Below are positions 17,001 through 43,709 of a stretch of 64,000 bases of DNA, one piece after another. This DNA is from Alphaproteobacteria bacterium (GTDB lineage Bacteria > Pseudomonadota > Alphaproteobacteria > UBA2966): NCBI GenBank assembly GCA_021296255.1, contig JAGWAU010000013.1:1-64000 (forward strand), written 5' to 3'. Position 1 is the first letter of the stretch. Each line of letters begins with the position of its first letter. The position numbers and the translations under genes are program-made. The notes under the pieces are model-generated. The model worked only from the letters and a program-made list of their open reading frames with translations, ran no database searches and had not been told where the DNA came from.

Positions 17001-17762
17001 GTGGCCGAGACCGAAACCGGGACAACCGCCTGCGCCGTCATTATCGGCAACGAGATTCTTTCGGGTCGCGTGCAGGATCGGAACCTCGCCTATATCGCCG
17101 AGCGGTTGAACGACTTCGGAGTCCGGTTGCGCGAGGCCCGGGTCGTCCCGGATGATCCGGACGCCATCATCGCCGCCATCAACGAATGCCGGCGGAAATT
17201 CGATTACGTGCTCACGACCGGCGGCATCGGGCCGACGCATGACGACATCACGGCCGAGTGCGTGGCTAGGGCGTTCGATGTCCCGCTCGAGGTCAACGAA
17301 GAGGCAGCGGAGGCCATGCAGGCCCGTGCTGGCGGCAAGGCCGATGAGGCGCGTCTCCGCATGGCGCGCGTCCCCGTGGGCGGCAAGCTGATCAAGAATG
17401 CCGTCTCCGCAGCCCCCGGCTTCCAGATGGAGAACGTCTTCGTTATGGCGGGCGTGCCTTCGGTGGCCAAAGCCATGGTCGATGCGCTGGGACCGCGGAT
17501 CGCTGGCGGCGCGCCCGTGCACTCGCGGGGGATCGTGGCGCATTTGTCCGAGGGGGTCGTCGCGGCGCCGCTCGCCGGCATCCAGAAGCGGTTTCCGGAC
17601 ATCGATATCGGCAGCTACCCGTTCTACCGCTCGGGCCGCTTCGGCACCACGCTGGTGGTTCGCTCGACCGACGCCGGCCGCATCGATGCTGCCGTCGATG
17701 AGATCAAGGCGATGATCCGTCGTCTGGGTGCTGAGCCCGAAGAGGAGCTGGAGGCGGTCTGA
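17001..17762 (+). CDS. molybdopterin-binding / CinA-type domain protein (short form)
   Basis: This 253-aa protein carries a MoaB/Mog-like fold as found in the N-terminal half of CinA. The motifs GNEILSGRVQDRN and TTGGIGPTHDD are the binding loops for molybdopterin or an adenylated substrate. The C-terminal deamidase domain of full CinA is missing, as in many short alphaproteobacterial homologues. GTG 17001 is preferred over an upstream TTG at 16965. Its TGA overlaps the ATG of the GNAT gene (TGATG), so the two are coupled. Confidence 0.85.
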   Translation: MAETETGTTACAVIIGNEILSGRVQDRNLAYIAERLNDFGVRLREARVVPDDPDAIIAAINECRRKFDYVLTTGGIGPTHDDITAECVARAFDVPLEVNEEAAEAMQARAGGKADEARLRMARVPVGGKLIKNAVSAAPGFQMENVFVMAGVPSVAKAMVDALGPRIAGGAPVHSRGIVAHLSEGVVAAPLAGIQKRFPDIDIGSYPFYRSGRFGTTLVVRSTDAGRIDAAVDEIKAMIRRLGAEPEEELEAV

Positions 17763-18307
17763 TGGGCAGTACCGCCATCGCGTTGCGCCGCGCCAGTCCC
17801 GCCGATGCCTCGGCCATCGCCCACGTTTACGTCAGCTCCTGGCGCACGACCTACAAGGGCCTCATTCCGAGACAGGTGCTCGCGGCCCTCGACGAACTCA
17901 AGCAGACGGGCTATTGGTGGAACGCGCTCTGCGAGTCGAGGCTGGGCTGCGGCGCCGTCGTGGCCGAGGGCGGATCCCGTGTCATAGGCTTCTCCGCCTT
18001 CGGGCCGGCGCGGGAGGAAGGGTTTTCACGGCGCGGCGAGATTTACACGCTCTACCTGCTCGATGCCTACCAGCGGTGCGGCCTCGGCCGGCGCCTGCTG
18101 TCGGCGAGCGCCGACGACATGGTCCAGGCGGGCTTCACGTCGATGTGTGTCTGGGTGCTGGCCCGCAACCCGGCGCGCGAATTCTATGAGCACCTGGGCG
18201 GGGTAGAGCTGTCGTCGCGCGATATCGGCCTCGGCGGCCGGCAGCTCGAAGAGATCTGTTACCTCTGGCCGGACCTTCGCCGTCTTGAGGCGCTGGAGGA
18301 GCATTGA
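17762..18307 (+). CDS. GNAT family N-acetyltransferase
   Basis: This 181-aa protein starts at an ATG sharing its A with the stop codon of the CinA-like gene. The GNAT fold is recognised from RRASPADASAIAHVYVSSWR at the N-terminus and the acetyl-CoA loop QRCGLGRRLL near residue 100. The closing segment NPAREFYEHLGGVEL is also typical. The acceptor substrate is unknown. The tRNA-Leu gene lies about 110 bases downstream. Confidence 0.88.
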   Translation: MGSTAIALRRASPADASAIAHVYVSSWRTTYKGLIPRQVLAALDELKQTGYWWNALCESRLGCGAVVAEGGSRVIGFSAFGPAREEGFSRRGEIYTLYLLDAYQRCGLGRRLLSASADDMVQAGFTSMCVWVLARNPAREFYEHLGGVELSSRDIGLGGRQLEEICYLWPDLRRLEALEEH

Positions 18308-18416
18308 GCGGTTTCTCCCAACATCGTTGCCCTGGAGAAATTTCTCGATCTGCTCTGAGCTGTTCCGGAGCGGAGATTCCTCGCCGGCAAGGAGAAGACG
18401 CAGATCGGGACCGGTT

Positions 18417-18502
18417 GCGGGCGTGGCGGAATGGTAGACGCAACGGACTTAAAATCCGTAGGGCGCAAGCCCGTGCTGGTTCGAGTCCAGCCGCCCGCAC
18501 CA
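18417..18502 (+). tRNA. tRNA-Leu (UAA)
   Basis: An 86-base tRNA with encoded CCA. The acceptor arm GCGGGCG pairs with CGCCCGC (18492-18498), followed by A and CCA. The anticodon stem ACGGA/TCCGT encloses loop CTTAAAA, giving anticodon TAA at 18450-18452. The long variable arm AGGGCGCAAGCCCGT marks a class II tRNA. TTCGAGT forms the T loop. Its 3' half is repeated at 20651, so it has served as an integration site. Confidence 0.97.
18456..18499 (+). repeat. attL-like direct repeat, copy 1 (inside tRNA-Leu)
   Basis: This 44-base segment spans part of the anticodon stem, the variable arm, T arm and acceptor 3' strand of the tRNA. It is identical to 20651-20694; identity stops exactly at both ends (T versus G before, C versus G after). 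Confidence 0.9.
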
Positions 18503-18642
18503 TTTAAAATCAATGACTTAGAAGGATTCGGCGGGAAAGCACGAGACCGTCAGTCAGGTTCGTGTCAGCAATATGTCAACACCATGCTTTGACACGCTCA
18601 TTGACAGAATGTGCGGGTCGTCCACGAAACCGGGGGAGACAT

Positions 18643-18971
18643 ATGAAACGAATGCTCATCGCGCTCGCCCTTGCCGTGGCGCTGGCAGGGACGGCGGGGG
18701 CGGAACCTTTGAGCTTCCACTTGTGGGAAGACGTTTGTGTCCATCACGGGTGAATGGCGCTCGATCGATCATGTAGAGACCATGCTCTATACGAAAATCG
18801 GATATCGTTTGTGTTCGCCCCGTGGAGTCATGGGTGTCGATATACGCCAAGGACGACCAGATTACGCAGAGGGAGGTGTGGTGGCGCATTCCGGGCGACC
18901 GCCGCCGCTGGTTGGTTGAATGTCTCGATTGGCGCTCTTGGCTGCGGCGCTCGGGTGGGCCCTCGCCCTGA
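18643..18971 (+). pseudogene. decayed gene for a small secreted protein
   Basis: GGGGGAG precedes ATG 18643, which opens a clean signal peptide MKRMLIALALAVALAGTAGA. The frame ends at TGA 18751-18753. Sequence that looks like the mature protein continues in a second frame (TFVSITGEWRSIDHVETMLY) and then in a third frame (QREVWWRIPGDRRRWLVE) ending at 18971. Two frame changes within 330 bases suggest a dead gene. No family is recognised. Confidence 0.45.
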
Positions 18972-19323
18972 GTCCCCTCTTGAGTGACAGTGGTTCAGCG
19001 GCATCGGAACGACCAGTGCAACGTTTCTTGTGCGTGTTCGATCGGCATGTGTCGCCAAATGCAGGCCGGGTCTCCCGCGACGACCCCTTACGCTACGAAT
19101 TCGTGGTCGATGGAACGAGTCATGCGTTCGCTGTCGGGCGCAACGTGTACCCGTTCAAGTAATCACAGGAGACCAGGGCATCACCTTGCTGGAAGTGCTG
19201 AAAACAAGTGCGCCGCAGACCATCACCATTCACATGACTGGCAGCGCCGTGCACAGCCGACATGCGATGCTTTCCGTGATCGGAGAGATCACACCAAGTC
19301 AGTATTACGGCACCTGCAAATAG
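18920..19323 (+). pseudogene. frameshifted gene for a putative exported protein
   Basis: ATG 18920 starts a signal peptide (SRLALLAAALGWALALSP) followed by FLCVFDRHVSP and RYEFVVDGTSHAFAVGRN. That frame stops at 19162. The adjacent frame continues sensibly with VITGDQGITLLEVLKTSAPQ and ends SQYYGTCK at 19323. One indel near 19140-19160 explains the break. The joined product would be about 133 aa. I do not recognise the family. Confidence 0.5.
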
Positions 19324-19689
19324 GAGATTCCTCTGGTCTTTTGCCACCGACGCCCTCAGCTAGGCAAGACCCTTCCCAATTATTAGCGCGAACGTCGTAG
19401 GGCAGGGCTTCAGCATAGGAATCGAGTACCACAAGGTAGTTACGGATCTCGCCACCCAGACGACCTTTCTAACTCCGACTTGGATAGATGGATATACAGG
19501 CCAGACTTCAGACTCGAGCTACATCCTAACGGGCATGGCACAAGGTTCCGACAGTTTGTCGACGAATATCTCCGGGTGAACGAGGATGCCTGCAAGTAGG
19601 CGGAACTAGGACCTCAGACGGCACGTGCGAGAAGGCTGACGTATTAAGTGGGACTGGCGGCGCGGGAAACGATAGGCACCAATTCGGCT
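19324..19689. other. island interior, gene fragment only
   Basis: No intact gene is visible here. From 19364 to about 19580 one frame reads GFSIGIEYHKVVTDLATQTT and TWIDGYTGQTSDSSYI. A neighbouring frame ends RQFVDEYLRVNEDACK at a TAG near 19600. The two together look like the C-terminal half of another exported protein with a frameshift. I see no RNA gene or terminator. Confidence 0.4.
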
Positions 19690-20043
19690 CTATTCCCCAT
19701 CCCGGCGCCGGTACCATCCCAACCGGTTCACGCAATTCAGAACTCGCGCCGCCGTGACGGGAAAGACCGCCACTGACGCGATGCGCGTTACGATCAAGGC
19801 ATGGCGCGAACTGTTCGGCCAGACGATGATCTCCCGAATCTCATCAAGCGGCACAGCGTGCTTCACCAGATGGTCATCCGCGCCCCGGAAGCCCATGAAC
19901 CATACGGTGTCCTCCGTGCACTCAAACGGCCGAATGTGCTTGCTCCGATCCTCGGATGCGGAAGCGAGCGCCGCCACGAGACAGGCGAACGCAACTCCGA
20001 ATATCGCTATCTCGAAGGTGTGCCGCTTAACCCAGGTCCACAT
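19690..20043 (-). CDS. hypothetical single-pass membrane protein
   Basis: This 117-aa product starts MWTWVKRH at ATG 20043 behind AGAGGGA. A transmembrane helix spans about residues 10-28 (IAIFGVAFACLVAALASAS). The remainder is soluble and ends with NRLGWYRRRDGE. No family is recognised. Its codon use is acceptable, making it one of the two most intact genes in the island. It could also be read from an upstream start in the same frame, but no ribosome-binding site supports that. Confidence 0.5.
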   Translation of the reverse strand: MWTWVKRHTFEIAIFGVAFACLVAALASASEDRSKHIRPFECTEDTVWFMGFRGADDHLVKHAVPLDEIREIIVWPNSSRHALIVTRIASVAVFPVTAARVLNCVNRLGWYRRRDGE

Positions 20044-20176
20044 ACCGCTTCCCTCTGGATAGCTGCCGGGGGGTGCGGACACCCCCCGAACGCCCAGCTT
20101 GTCATCAAAACGGAGTCTCTCGTTCATCTGAGCATGAAACGCGCGAGCAATCACCCATGAGCGCGACGAGAGGCGC

Positions 20177-20479
20177 CTAGAGGGAAAGGCCGTCAGCGGC
20201 GCCATACGGGCGCCTAGGGCGTCCTAGTTGAACGCTCGCGCCGCAAGCGTTTGCAATATCGGATGGAGCAGCCACCCAAAAAAATGAGATGCCCACAACA
20301 GCAATACACGCTGCCCCGGCAACCCGGGCTGCCTTGGTCTCGAGCGCGATCAAGCGACCTTCTACCGAGTCAAAGCGTCCGTCAGAGCGCGATTCCAGAC
20401 GGTCAAAGCGATTGGCCAACCATCCCACAGGGATGGCCTCGTCATTAGAGAACGCGACATCCGGCGATGCCTCGGTCAT
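20177..20479 (-). CDS. small coiled-coil membrane protein
   Basis: This 100-aa protein has a charged helical region (NRFDRLESRSDGRFDSVEGR) likely to form a coiled coil, then a hydrophobic helix (VAGAACIAVVGISFFWVA). This layout is like phage XhlA/holin-associated proteins, but no signature proves it. A weak ribosome-binding site precedes ATG 20479. It lies in the same orientation as the upstream possible IS trace and the next membrane protein. Confidence 0.45.
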   Translation of the reverse strand: MTEASPDVAFSNDEAIPVGWLANRFDRLESRSDGRFDSVEGRLIALETKAARVAGAACIAVVGISFFWVAAPSDIANACGASVQLGRPRRPYGAADGLSL

Positions 20480-20537
20480 GGCTCACGCCTATACAATAAT
20501 TTTCATAACTTTTGCATTGAGGCTCAGCACGAATGCA

Positions 20538-20640
20538 CACCGTGTGCAGGTTGACGATCTCCTCCTGCTCGTAGCGCCTCCTTGCCATTGTCGGTCCTCC
20601 TCATTCCATAACCTAAGGGTGGACCATTCCAGTGGGGGAA
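20538..20640 (-). mobile_element. possible IS3-family fragment (start of orfA)
   Basis: On the minus strand AGGAGGA precedes ATG 20588, and the product begins MARRRYEQEEIVNLHTV. This resembles the start of IS3-family OrfA transposases (MxRKRY-x-EEIV). The similarity ends after about 17 codons. The sequence before it, about 20619-20647, could be part of an IS terminal repeat. Nothing else of a transposase is present. Confidence 0.3.
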
Positions 20641-20650
20641 GATCACTAAG

Positions 20651-20694
20651 CCGTAGGGCGCAAGCCCGTGCTGGTTCGAGTCCAGCCGCCCGCA
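20651..20694 (+). repeat. attR-like direct repeat, copy 2 (partial tRNA-Leu)
   Basis: This is an exact 44-base duplicate of the 3' half of the tRNA-Leu at 18456-18499. It lacks the 5' half and the CCA end, so it is not a functional tRNA. It marks the right border of the island, 90 bases before the aldehyde dehydrogenase start. Confidence 0.9.
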
Positions 20695-20784
20695 GCAAAC
20701 CGTTCGAACGACATCCCCCTCGGTTGAGAGCGTGCGGCCCGCTCGTGTAGACAGGATGGAGACACAGGAGAGGAGGAGGCGTCG

Positions 20785-22296
20785 ATGACCGAACTGTCCA
20801 AATCGGAGATCGCCGAGATTGCCGGGAAGCTGCCCATCCGGACCCGGGCCTTCATCGACGGCGAGTACCATCCGGCCGCGTCGGGCCAGACCTTCGCGAC
20901 CGTCAATCCGGCGACCGGCGAGCACATCGCCGATGTCGCGCACTGCGGCGGCGAGGACGTCGACCGGGCCGTCCGAGCGGCCCGCCGCGCCTTCGACGGC
21001 GGCGCATGGTCGCGCGCGGCCCCCGAACACCGCAAGGAAGTGCTGCTCAAGCTCGCCGACCTCGTGCGCGCCCATGCCGCGGAAATCGCGGTGATGGAAA
21101 GCACCGACGTCGGCAAGACGATCAGCGATGCGATGGACGAGATCGGCGGCGAGGCCGTCAGCTACTTCCAATGGTACGCGGAACTCGCCGACAAGACCTT
21201 CGGCAAGGTCGCGACGACGGGCGAGGATGCCCTGGCCCTCATCGTCAAGGAGCCCGCCGGTGTCGCCGCGGCGGTCCTGCCCTGGAACTTCCCGTTCCTG
21301 ATGGCCGTGTGGAAGGTGGCGACCGCGCTGGCGGCCGGCTGTTCCGTCATCCTCAAGCCGGCCGAGCAGACGCCGCTGACGACGATCTACCTCGCCGAAC
21401 TGGCGACGGAGGCGGGCGTGCCTCCCGGCGTGATCAACGCCCTGCCGGGCCTCGGCGAGACCACGGGCCAGGCGCTGGGGCGGCACGGCGACATCGACGT
21501 CATCTCCTTCACCGGATCGACCGAGGTCGGCGGTTATTTCATGCGCTACGCGGGTGAGAGCAATCTCAAGTCCGTGGGTCTCGAGATGGGCGGGAAGAGC
21601 CCGTTCATCGTGCTGGACGACGCCGACCTCGACGATGACCTCATCGAGCACGCGGCGCTTTCGGCCTTCTGGAACGCGGGTCAGAACTGCTCGGCGAACA
21701 TGCGGCAGATCGTCGACGCCAGGCGAGCAGGGGAATACGTCGAGCGCGTGACGGCCCGCGCCAATGCTTACAAGGTCGGTGATCCCCTGGATCCCGAGAC
21801 CGAGATCGGCGCCATGATCACGTCCGAGCACCGGGACGTCGTCATGGGTTACATCGAAAAGGGTCGGGCCGAGGGCGCGCGCCTTGTGGCCGGTGGCGCG
21901 ACCCTGGATGCGCCGGGCTATTTCGTGCGGCCCACGGTGTTCGACGGCCTGACCCCCGACATGACCATCTCGCGCGAGGAGATCTTCGGGCCGGTCCTCG
22001 GCGTCCTGCCGGTCAGGAATTTCGACGAGGCCCTCGCCGTCGCCAACGACACCGACTACGGCCTGCACGCCACGGTGTTCACCCGGGACATCGATCGCGC
22101 CATCCACATGGCCCGCCGCCTGCCGTGCGGTACGGTCGCCGTGAACGGGTTCACGGAAGGCGACGTCAAGACGCCCTTCGGCGGCTACAAGCGGTCGGGG
22201 TCCATGGCGCGCGAGAACGGCGTGGAAGCCTTGGACCAGTACGTTCAAACCAAGACCATCTGGATCTCCGTCGGTGCGATGGATGCCGTCTCATGA
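20785..22296 (+). CDS. NAD-dependent aldehyde dehydrogenase (PuuC/BetB-like)
   Basis: This 503-aa enzyme oxidises aldehydes to acids. The catalytic Glu is in LEMGGKSP and the Cys in NAGQNCSA. The PWNFP loop and FTGSTEVGG cofactor site are present. The overall sequence resembles gamma-glutamyl-aminobutyraldehyde or betaine aldehyde dehydrogenases, but specificity is not certain. A strong ribosome-binding site (GAGAGGAGGAGG) precedes ATG 20785. It is the first gene outside the right border of the island and is convergent with a TauD-like gene. Confidence 0.93.
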   Translation: MTELSKSEIAEIAGKLPIRTRAFIDGEYHPAASGQTFATVNPATGEHIADVAHCGGEDVDRAVRAARRAFDGGAWSRAAPEHRKEVLLKLADLVRAHAAEIAVMESTDVGKTISDAMDEIGGEAVSYFQWYAELADKTFGKVATTGEDALALIVKEPAGVAAAVLPWNFPFLMAVWKVATALAAGCSVILKPAEQTPLTTIYLAELATEAGVPPGVINALPGLGETTGQALGRHGDIDVISFTGSTEVGGYFMRYAGESNLKSVGLEMGGKSPFIVLDDADLDDDLIEHAALSAFWNAGQNCSANMRQIVDARRAGEYVERVTARANAYKVGDPLDPETEIGAMITSEHRDVVMGYIEKGRAEGARLVAGGATLDAPGYFVRPTVFDGLTPDMTISREEIFGPVLGVLPVRNFDEALAVANDTDYGLHATVFTRDIDRAIHMARRLPCGTVAVNGFTEGDVKTPFGGYKRSGSMARENGVEALDQYVQTKTIWISVGAMDAVS

Positions 22297-41951: not shown

Positions 41952-42103
41952 CCGGCGATGCATTACGTAAAGCCATACGGCCGTGTCGCGGATTATCCGC
42001 GTTACGGCCGTCTTGCATCGGTGACAGGGTGCCGCTCAAGCGCCACGCGCGAGCGCGATATCCTGGAAAATGTCTCGGAAAGCGACGGACCGGCCGCCAG
42101 GAA

Positions 42104-42325
42104 CTAGAGCCAGCCCGAGCGCCAGGACGCCTTGGCCTTGCAGCTCCGGCAGATACGCTCGCCGGACCATGCGCTTTCGAACTGCTCTCCACACGCCAGA
42201 CAACGGCGCACTCTGCTTTCATAAACCGGTGTGGAAGCCTCGTCTTCGCCCCACACATCCCCGGGATCGTCTGCTGAATGCGAAACGAGATCCAAGGGAT
42301 TCGAAGATTCTGTGCTGTGATCCAT
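42104..42325 (-). CDS. small zinc-ribbon protein
   Basis: This 73-aa protein has two Cys-x2-Cys knuckles (RCLACGEQFESAWSGERICRS is split by them: CLAC and CRSC), as in small zinc ribbons. The N-terminal half is acidic and probably disordered. ATG 42325 is preceded by TAAGGA. No function is known. The reading-frame length, Cys spacing and ribosome-binding site make it more than a chance ORF. Confidence 0.6.
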   Translation of the reverse strand: MDHSTESSNPLDLVSHSADDPGDVWGEDEASTPVYESRVRRCLACGEQFESAWSGERICRSCKAKASWRSGWL

Positions 42326-42677
42326 TCCTTAGTCCGTACCCCGATCGTGGTTCAGGCCGTCCCATACCGTCCAGAACCATGGTCATATGTCAAAAGCCAT
42401 AAGCGCCGCCAGCAAGCCTGGCGCACCAAACCCACTTAAGAAACGGCCGCAACAACTCTGTTTGCATGCTGCAATCAGGAGGCAGTCGGCACGCCATACC
42501 AGCGGCTTGTCGGCCTTGATGGAGGTAAACCATAACACGGATGGTGCCTGGTTCCTACTAAAATTTCGAACCGAAGAAGCCGGGTTTGCCTCTAATTAAT
42601 TGAAGTAAGGAAATTTTTTAATTGATGACGCGCGAGGTTTCGGACGATCGTTCTGCTGCCTCGATCCGGCGGATCCG
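42326..42677. other. intergenic region, AT-rich patch, no gene seen
   Basis: This 352-base gap lies between the zinc-ribbon gene and the luciferase-like gene. A short plus-strand ORF (42387-42599) lacks a ribosome-binding site and family features. About 42590-42630 is an AT-rich patch (TAATTAATTGAAG, TTTTTTAATTGA) unlike the surrounding DNA. It may be part of a promoter for the zinc-ribbon gene or a terminator region for the gene to the right. Confidence 0.4.
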
Positions 42678-43709
42678 CTACTCGGCTGCCTTCCGGATCG
42701 CTCCGAGTTCACGGCATCTGGGCATGACCTCCTCGACGAACAGATTCATGGATGCTTTGACCATGTCGAGCGGCAGGCCGCCGAAATTCATCCAGCAGAT
42801 GAGGTTGTTGATGCCGGCGATTTCGTTGAGTTCCTGGATCTTTTCGATGCATGTTTCCGGGCCGCCGAAGATCATTTGGCCCCGTTCGTGATCACCGATC
42901 GGGCGGAATTGGGCCGTGGACTTCATATAATAGTCGACGTAGTCGGTGCCTTTACGCTTGGCTTCGGCATCCGACTCCGCGACGAACACGTGGCGCACGC
43001 ACGTGAACGGAAAGTCGAGATCGTCGAGACCTTGGCTCGCCCGTGCCTCCCGCATGAGGTTGTGCGCCTGTCCCAGTTGATCCGGCGGCGCCCACGCCGA
43101 CAGCATGTGGTAGCCGTGCTTGGCGACATAATCGATCACTTCGTGCGTGCCCAGCCGCGTAGCGACCCAGACCGGCGGGTGAGGCTTTTGAATCGGTCGG
43201 GGCACGAGGCTGAGCCTCGGGACATTCCAGTACTTTCCTTCATAGGTGAACTCATCCGTCGTCCAGACGCCAAGAATGATCTCCAGAGCCTCGTTGAAGC
43301 GCTCGAGCTTCTCCTCGATGGGAACCCTCAATCCTTCGAACTCATATTTCCTGTACCCGAGCCCGACCCCGAAATCGATGCGTCCGCCCGACAGGATGTC
43401 CGCCATCGCGACCTCTTCCGCCGTAAGCAGTGGATGTTCCAGCGGTAGAATCTTGACCGCCGTCGCGATGCGGACATTTTCGGTGATCATGGCTACAGCG
43501 CAGGCCATGGCGTAGGGCGAGGCACAGACGCAGTACTCGCCGTCGACGTCCGGCACGTAAGGAACCGAGGAGAAGTGGTGCTCCGTCAGCCATACGGAGT
43601 CGAAACCGAGCCTGTCCGCCAGCTTGAACTGCTCGATATGCTCCGCGTAGACCTGGACCTCCGACTTGGTAAACGGCTGTTCCATCAGGTGAAAAGTGCC
43701 GAACTTCAT
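42678..43709 (-). CDS. LLM class flavin-dependent oxidoreductase (bacterial luciferase-like)
   Basis: This 343-aa TIM-barrel monooxygenase resembles LuxA-type enzymes: the start MKFGTFHLMEQPF, LADRLGFDSVWLTEHHF, the segment LPLEHPLLTAEEVAMADILS and GGRIDFGVGLGYRKYE are characteristic. It uses reduced FMN from a separate reductase, which is not encoded nearby. ATG 43709 is chosen with GAGG upstream. It is followed to the left by the AT-rich gap and preceded by the acyl-CoA dehydrogenase gene. Confidence 0.92.
   Translation of the reverse strand: MKFGTFHLMEQPFTKSEVQVYAEHIEQFKLADRLGFDSVWLTEHHFSSVPYVPDVDGEYCVCASPYAMACAVAMITENVRIATAVKILPLEHPLLTAEEVAMADILSGGRIDFGVGLGYRKYEFEGLRVPIEEKLERFNEALEIILGVWTTDEFTYEGKYWNVPRLSLVPRPIQKPHPPVWVATRLGTHEVIDYVAKHGYHMLSAWAPPDQLGQAHNLMREARASQGLDDLDFPFTCVRHVFVAESDAEAKRKGTDYVDYYMKSTAQFRPIGDHERGQMIFGGPETCIEKIQELNEIAGINNLICWMNFGGLPLDMVKASMNLFVEEVMPRCRELGAIRKAAE

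Follow-up and report, generated by a model that had tools for sequence, protein, structure and literature searches.

The window analysed in the present study is a 64-kb stretch of DNA (64,000 nucleotides, on contig C63) from a genome of 4.25 Mb in 136 contigs, with an estimated contamination of 4.2%. A single tRNA gene, an intact tRNA-Leu(UAA), was identified within this window by ARAGORN and Rfam. It lies between genes for a GNAT acetyltransferase and an aldehyde dehydrogenase, and a second copy of its 3' half lies downstream, before the latter gene. The features of the locus and the evidence used to assign them are as follows.

17762-18307, plus strand: GNAT acetyltransferase gene, left flank, conserved in the same-genus genomes (ORF list, genome comparison)
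18417-18502, plus strand: tRNA-Leu(UAA), probably the regenerated target gene (ARAGORN, Rfam, own-genome search)
18456-18499, plus strand: left copy of the putative 44-bp attachment core, spanning from the anticodon loop/stem to near the tRNA 3' end (sequence comparison)
18503-20650, no strand: probable element remnant, 2,148 bp, 57.4% GC, missing from both same-genus genomes (genome comparison, GC scan)
18643-18968, plus strand: putative broken gene with a signal-peptide start that meets a stop after 36 codons and continues in other frames only (ORF list, inference)
18920-19323, plus strand: frameshifted gene for a small exported protein (two halves in two frames that match adjoining parts of one intact homologue)
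19693-20043, minus strand: putative intact gene for a 117-aa protein whose N-terminus carries a membrane or export segment (ORF list, GC3)
20177-20479, minus strand: possible gene, 100 aa, with a coiled-coil-like stretch, one hydrophobic segment, and a weak coding signal (ORF list)
20547-20645, minus strand: truncated IS3-type left end with the terminus TGATC... and the first codons of orfA from 20588 (own-genome copies; orfA of the copy on C81 matches HTH_Tnp_1)
20651-20694, plus strand: right copy of the 44-bp core, a probable displaced 3' tRNA fragment (sequence comparison)
20785-22296, plus strand: aldehyde dehydrogenase gene, right flank, adjoining tRNA-Leu in both same-genus genomes (ORF list, genome comparison)

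The two copies of the core are identical over all 44 bp and lie in the same orientation, the right copy being offset by 2,195 bp downstream. Over a slightly longer span (18453-18502 vs 20648-20697), 48 of 50 positions are identical, and the 2 mismatches fall just outside the core. The repeated segment has the extent of the 3' half of tRNA-Leu(UAA), from the anticodon loop to the 3' end. An exact repeat of this 3' half across approximately 2.15 kb had been described in a first-pass annotation, and the present comparison confirmed it. No other direct repeat of at least 30 nt was detected in the window, and chance or low-complexity sequence was rejected as the source of the repeat. The full tRNA-Leu(UAA) gene is present in one copy in its own genome, accompanied by the fragment at 20651-20694. 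Both copies in the window have variable-arm bases in common that differ from those of the same-genus genomes G001 and G002. As judged from these bases, the donor host of the element may have possessed the same tRNA.

The same-genus comparison comprised two MAGs, G001 (OY282368.1) and G002 (UBA2966). The gene order in G001 is GNAT, one tRNA-Leu, and aldehyde dehydrogenase. In G002, approximately 0.1 kb separates tRNA-Leu from the aldehyde dehydrogenase gene that follows it, and the GNAT gene is on another contig. Neither the interior nor a second tRNA-Leu fragment was found in these two genomes. The first-pass annotation had expected relatives with an empty site, and both of the same-genus MAGs examined (2/2) carry a single tRNA-Leu followed by the aldehyde dehydrogenase gene with no insert.

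The approximately 240 bp between tRNA-Leu and the aldehyde dehydrogenase gene in G001 (C1; L025, 2717-2977) is unrelated to the window. An older second scar behind the G001 tRNA was considered and rejected because the 12-bp match to the tRNA end found there was not significant (259 of 1000 shuffles scored as well). On the other side of the tRNA, the spacer between the GNAT stop codon and the tRNA in the window (18308-18416, approximately 109 bp) did not align with the short spacer in G001, and a CATTGCGACAAT stretch found upstream of the tRNA in both G001 and G002 is missing from the window. Between GNAT and tRNA-Leu in G002, both contig ends (L026 and L027; C66 and C108) carry fragments of a TauD-type dioxygenase gene, which indicates that the left side of tRNA-Leu also varies within the genus.

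The GC content of the interior is 57.4% vs 65-66% in the flanks, and is the minimum among 619 equal-size windows of the 64 kb. A second GC dip (58%) was noted at 42001-43500, between aldolase-like and luciferase-like monooxygenase genes; a part of approximately 0.7 kb contains no convincing genes. The longest interior ORF does not exceed the length expected by chance, and genes cannot be argued here from ORF length alone. In the interior ORFs searched, Pfam and PHROG comparisons did not detect an integrase, an excisionase, or any other mobility gene, and contig C63 carries no match to the tyrosine recombinase family PF00589, which has 20 matches elsewhere in the genome. The absence of an integrase and an excisionase reported in the first-pass annotation was thus upheld. 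The interior yielded no recognisable phage genes for structure, lysis, or replication. Defence-system models gave no match, and predictions of promoters and terminators were not above those in shuffled sequences. Comparisons of the interior DNA with 385 alphaproteobacterial genomes and with plasmid and phage collections returned either nothing or short, chance-level matches. An intact version of the element was not found in the same genomes, plasmids, or phages, and a second copy was not found in its own genome.

Among the cargo genes, the frameshifted gene at 18920-19323 has identifiable relatives. When its two frames were joined, for the search only, the product matched, at 59% over residues 24-134, an intact protein from another alphaproteobacterium. 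A further homologue (42%) is located on a Bradyrhizobium plasmid, at an unannotated place, and another is in a viral contig, approximately 1-1.5 kb (within a few kb) from phage tail/tail-fibre genes. The family consists of small exported proteins with the C-terminal pattern ...HSRHxxL...PSQYYGxCK. No Pfam or NCBIfam model covers this family, and the PHROG match is weak and partial at best. Its recurrence on a plasmid and close to prophage tail genes may justify a family model. Family and homologue searches did not reveal any relatives of the putative gene at 18643-18968. The 117-aa ORF at 19693-20043 has a raised, coding-like GC3 (0.75); its protein matched no family, and relatives in viral contigs, plasmids, and the class were absent or at the chance level. 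Relatives of the 100-aa ORF product were likewise absent or at the chance level among plasmids, phages, and the class.

The sequence at 20547-20645 is 76-86% identical to three other places in its own genome. The copy on C81 begins an orfA whose protein matches HTH_Tnp_1 (PF01527) above the cut-off, whereas the fragment in the window is by itself too short for a match, and we therefore assign 20547-20645 to an IS3-type left end. The termini were compared by eye. The window copy has the terminal sequence and first orfA codons of IS3-family insertion sequences; however, it differs from them in keeping only approximately 100 bp of the left end, after which homology stops, and it lies 5 bp from the repeat core. 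This copy is truncated, and neither a right end nor a target-site duplication was found. On G000:C81 (791-890 and 937-1024), the best-preserved copy of the IS end is located approximately 46 bp from the 3' end of tRNA-Ser(GGA). Two of the four copies seen lie near tRNA sequence, and a sample of four is too small to establish a preference. The first-pass annotation described the interior as frame-broken, with cargo that matches nothing. The former description is correct for the gene at 18920-19323, which is split between two frames, and has been shown for no other gene. The latter needs to be revised for this gene, which belongs to an unnamed exported-protein family, and for the right border with its IS3-type end; it stands for the other cargo, which lacks clear relatives in the collections searched, and the interior as a whole has neither a DNA relative in the phage collections nor a PHROG match at E <0.05.

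We consider it very probable that 18503-20650 is the remnant of a tyrosine-integrase element, either a prophage or an island, that integrated at the anticodon loop of tRNA-Leu(UAA) and has since lost its integrase and decayed. The incoming element would have carried a copy of the tRNA 3' half, so that the tRNA gene would have stayed whole and the original 3' half would have been pushed to 20651-20694. An IS3-type insertion sequence may later have come to lie beside the right core and may have fixed the element in place or brought about the deletion of its integrase. Its arrival would separate the core from any arm sites, and an IS-associated deletion would have been a ready way to lose the integrase. 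Deletions would have removed the integrase and the greater part of both the element and the insertion sequence, leaving small cargo genes to decay. The element may have been a prophage, a satellite, or an island, and we slightly favour the accessory-gene end of a prophage. The link to prophages is indirect, through the homologue of one cargo gene that is close to tail genes in a viral contig. The proposal of tRNA-targeted integration in the first-pass annotation is supported by the empty sites in G001 and G002 and, as discussed below, by the anticodon-site geometry of Islander islands and a viral contig that pairs this tRNA with an integrase. Its related proposal, that the element lost its mobility genes, agrees with the finding that none are present; however, the loss itself is deduced from this absence and was not observed.

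Other origins of the interval were weighed against a decayed tyrosine-integrase element. Since the source is a metagenome assembly of 136 contigs with some estimated contamination (4.2%), and no relatives of the interior were found in the genus, the 44-bp repeat might have joined an unrelated fragment into the locus. We regard this as exceedingly improbable. The order and orientation of the flanks match those in G001, the two copies of the repeat are not fully identical (2 mismatches in 50 positions, immediately beyond the core), and the IS end at the right border, with three related copies in its own genome, ties the interior to this genome. Moreover, a fragment flanked by a tRNA and the 3' half of that same tRNA would be an island in itself. 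A local duplication or an IS-mediated rearrangement that made the tRNA fragment without a tRNA-targeting integrase is also highly improbable. The IS3-type end only 5 bp from the right copy and the absence of an integrase are consistent with such an event. However, the repeat covers exactly the part of the tRNA, anticodon loop through 3' end, that is expected of tyrosine-integrase A-site islands, the other genomic copies of the IS end are not beside tRNA-Leu fragments, and the interior is compositionally foreign.

It is also conceivable, although very unlikely, that the same integration occurred with an element that never had an integrase, namely, a small satellite or non-autonomous island mobilised in trans. 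The small size of the interior, its several intact-looking short ORFs, and the 20 tyrosine-recombinase matches elsewhere in the genome are consistent with such an origin. However, at least one broken gene and a truncated insertion sequence are present inside, which indicates that the interior has been deleted and mutated, and no second copy was found in the genome. A decayed tyrosine-integrase element accounts for the locus as an ordinary kind of feature, and nothing points to a new mechanism. We consider it unlikely that the remnant belongs to a hitherto undescribed group of small elements that use tRNA-Leu(UAA) in uncultured Alphaproteobacteria, with small exported and membrane cargo (e.g. 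the ...HSRHxxL...PSQYYGxCK family) as an unrecognised accessory module of prophages and plasmids.

The present analysis adds the IS end found at the right border, a family of homologues for one of the cargo genes, and a phage with tRNA-Leu(UAA) near an integrase. The locus illustrates in a compact and clear form how an integrated element may die: the tRNA is repaired, the displaced 3' half remains as a border mark, an insertion sequence sits at the margin, and no integrase is left. Island finders that require an integrase miss such scars, and our literature search did not find comparable integrase-less prophage scars.

Islander recognises its islands by a complete tRNA gene followed downstream by a cognate 3' fragment of matching orientation, and assigns those with an anticodon-centred crossover to class A (PMC4383910), which comprises 2,083 of 3,919 islands (PMC4383910). 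The present locus has this geometry, with an intact tRNA gene and a downstream, same-orientation fragment that reaches the 3' end region. Its length, 2,148 bp between the tRNA and the fragment core, barely exceeds the Islander threshold of at least 2 kb. The insert-free site in related genomes, which is the usual corroboration and is outside Islander's filter, was observed in G001 and G002. Only the integrase that Islander requires is absent, with no Pfam or PHROG integrase match in the interior ORFs searched, and we therefore regard the locus as a relic and not as a putatively active island. The element thus resembles Islander islands (PMC4383910) in its intact tRNA and same-orientation 3' fragment, anticodon-loop crossover, length just over 2 kb, and foreign composition. 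It differs from them in lacking an integrase, and Islander's filter would reject it.

The use of tRNA-Leu(UAA) by phages is supported by a viral contig (L050, IMGVR_UViG_3300025131_002960) that carries an intact tRNA-Leu(UAA) approximately 0.75 kb from a tyrosine integrase, with phage replication genes nearby. The 3' half of this tRNA is identical to that of G002 and nearly identical to that in the window. HTVC019P-type phages of SAR11 bacteria have been reported to integrate at a tRNA-Leu with anticodon TAG, for which they bring their own replacement copy (PMC6811365). These temperate podoviruses differ from the remnant in the tRNA-Leu(TAG) used, and neither they nor the viral contig shares a gene with it. 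However, HTVC019P-type podoviruses, the viral contig, and the present remnant are alike in that tRNA-Leu appears as an integration site in Alphaproteobacteria.
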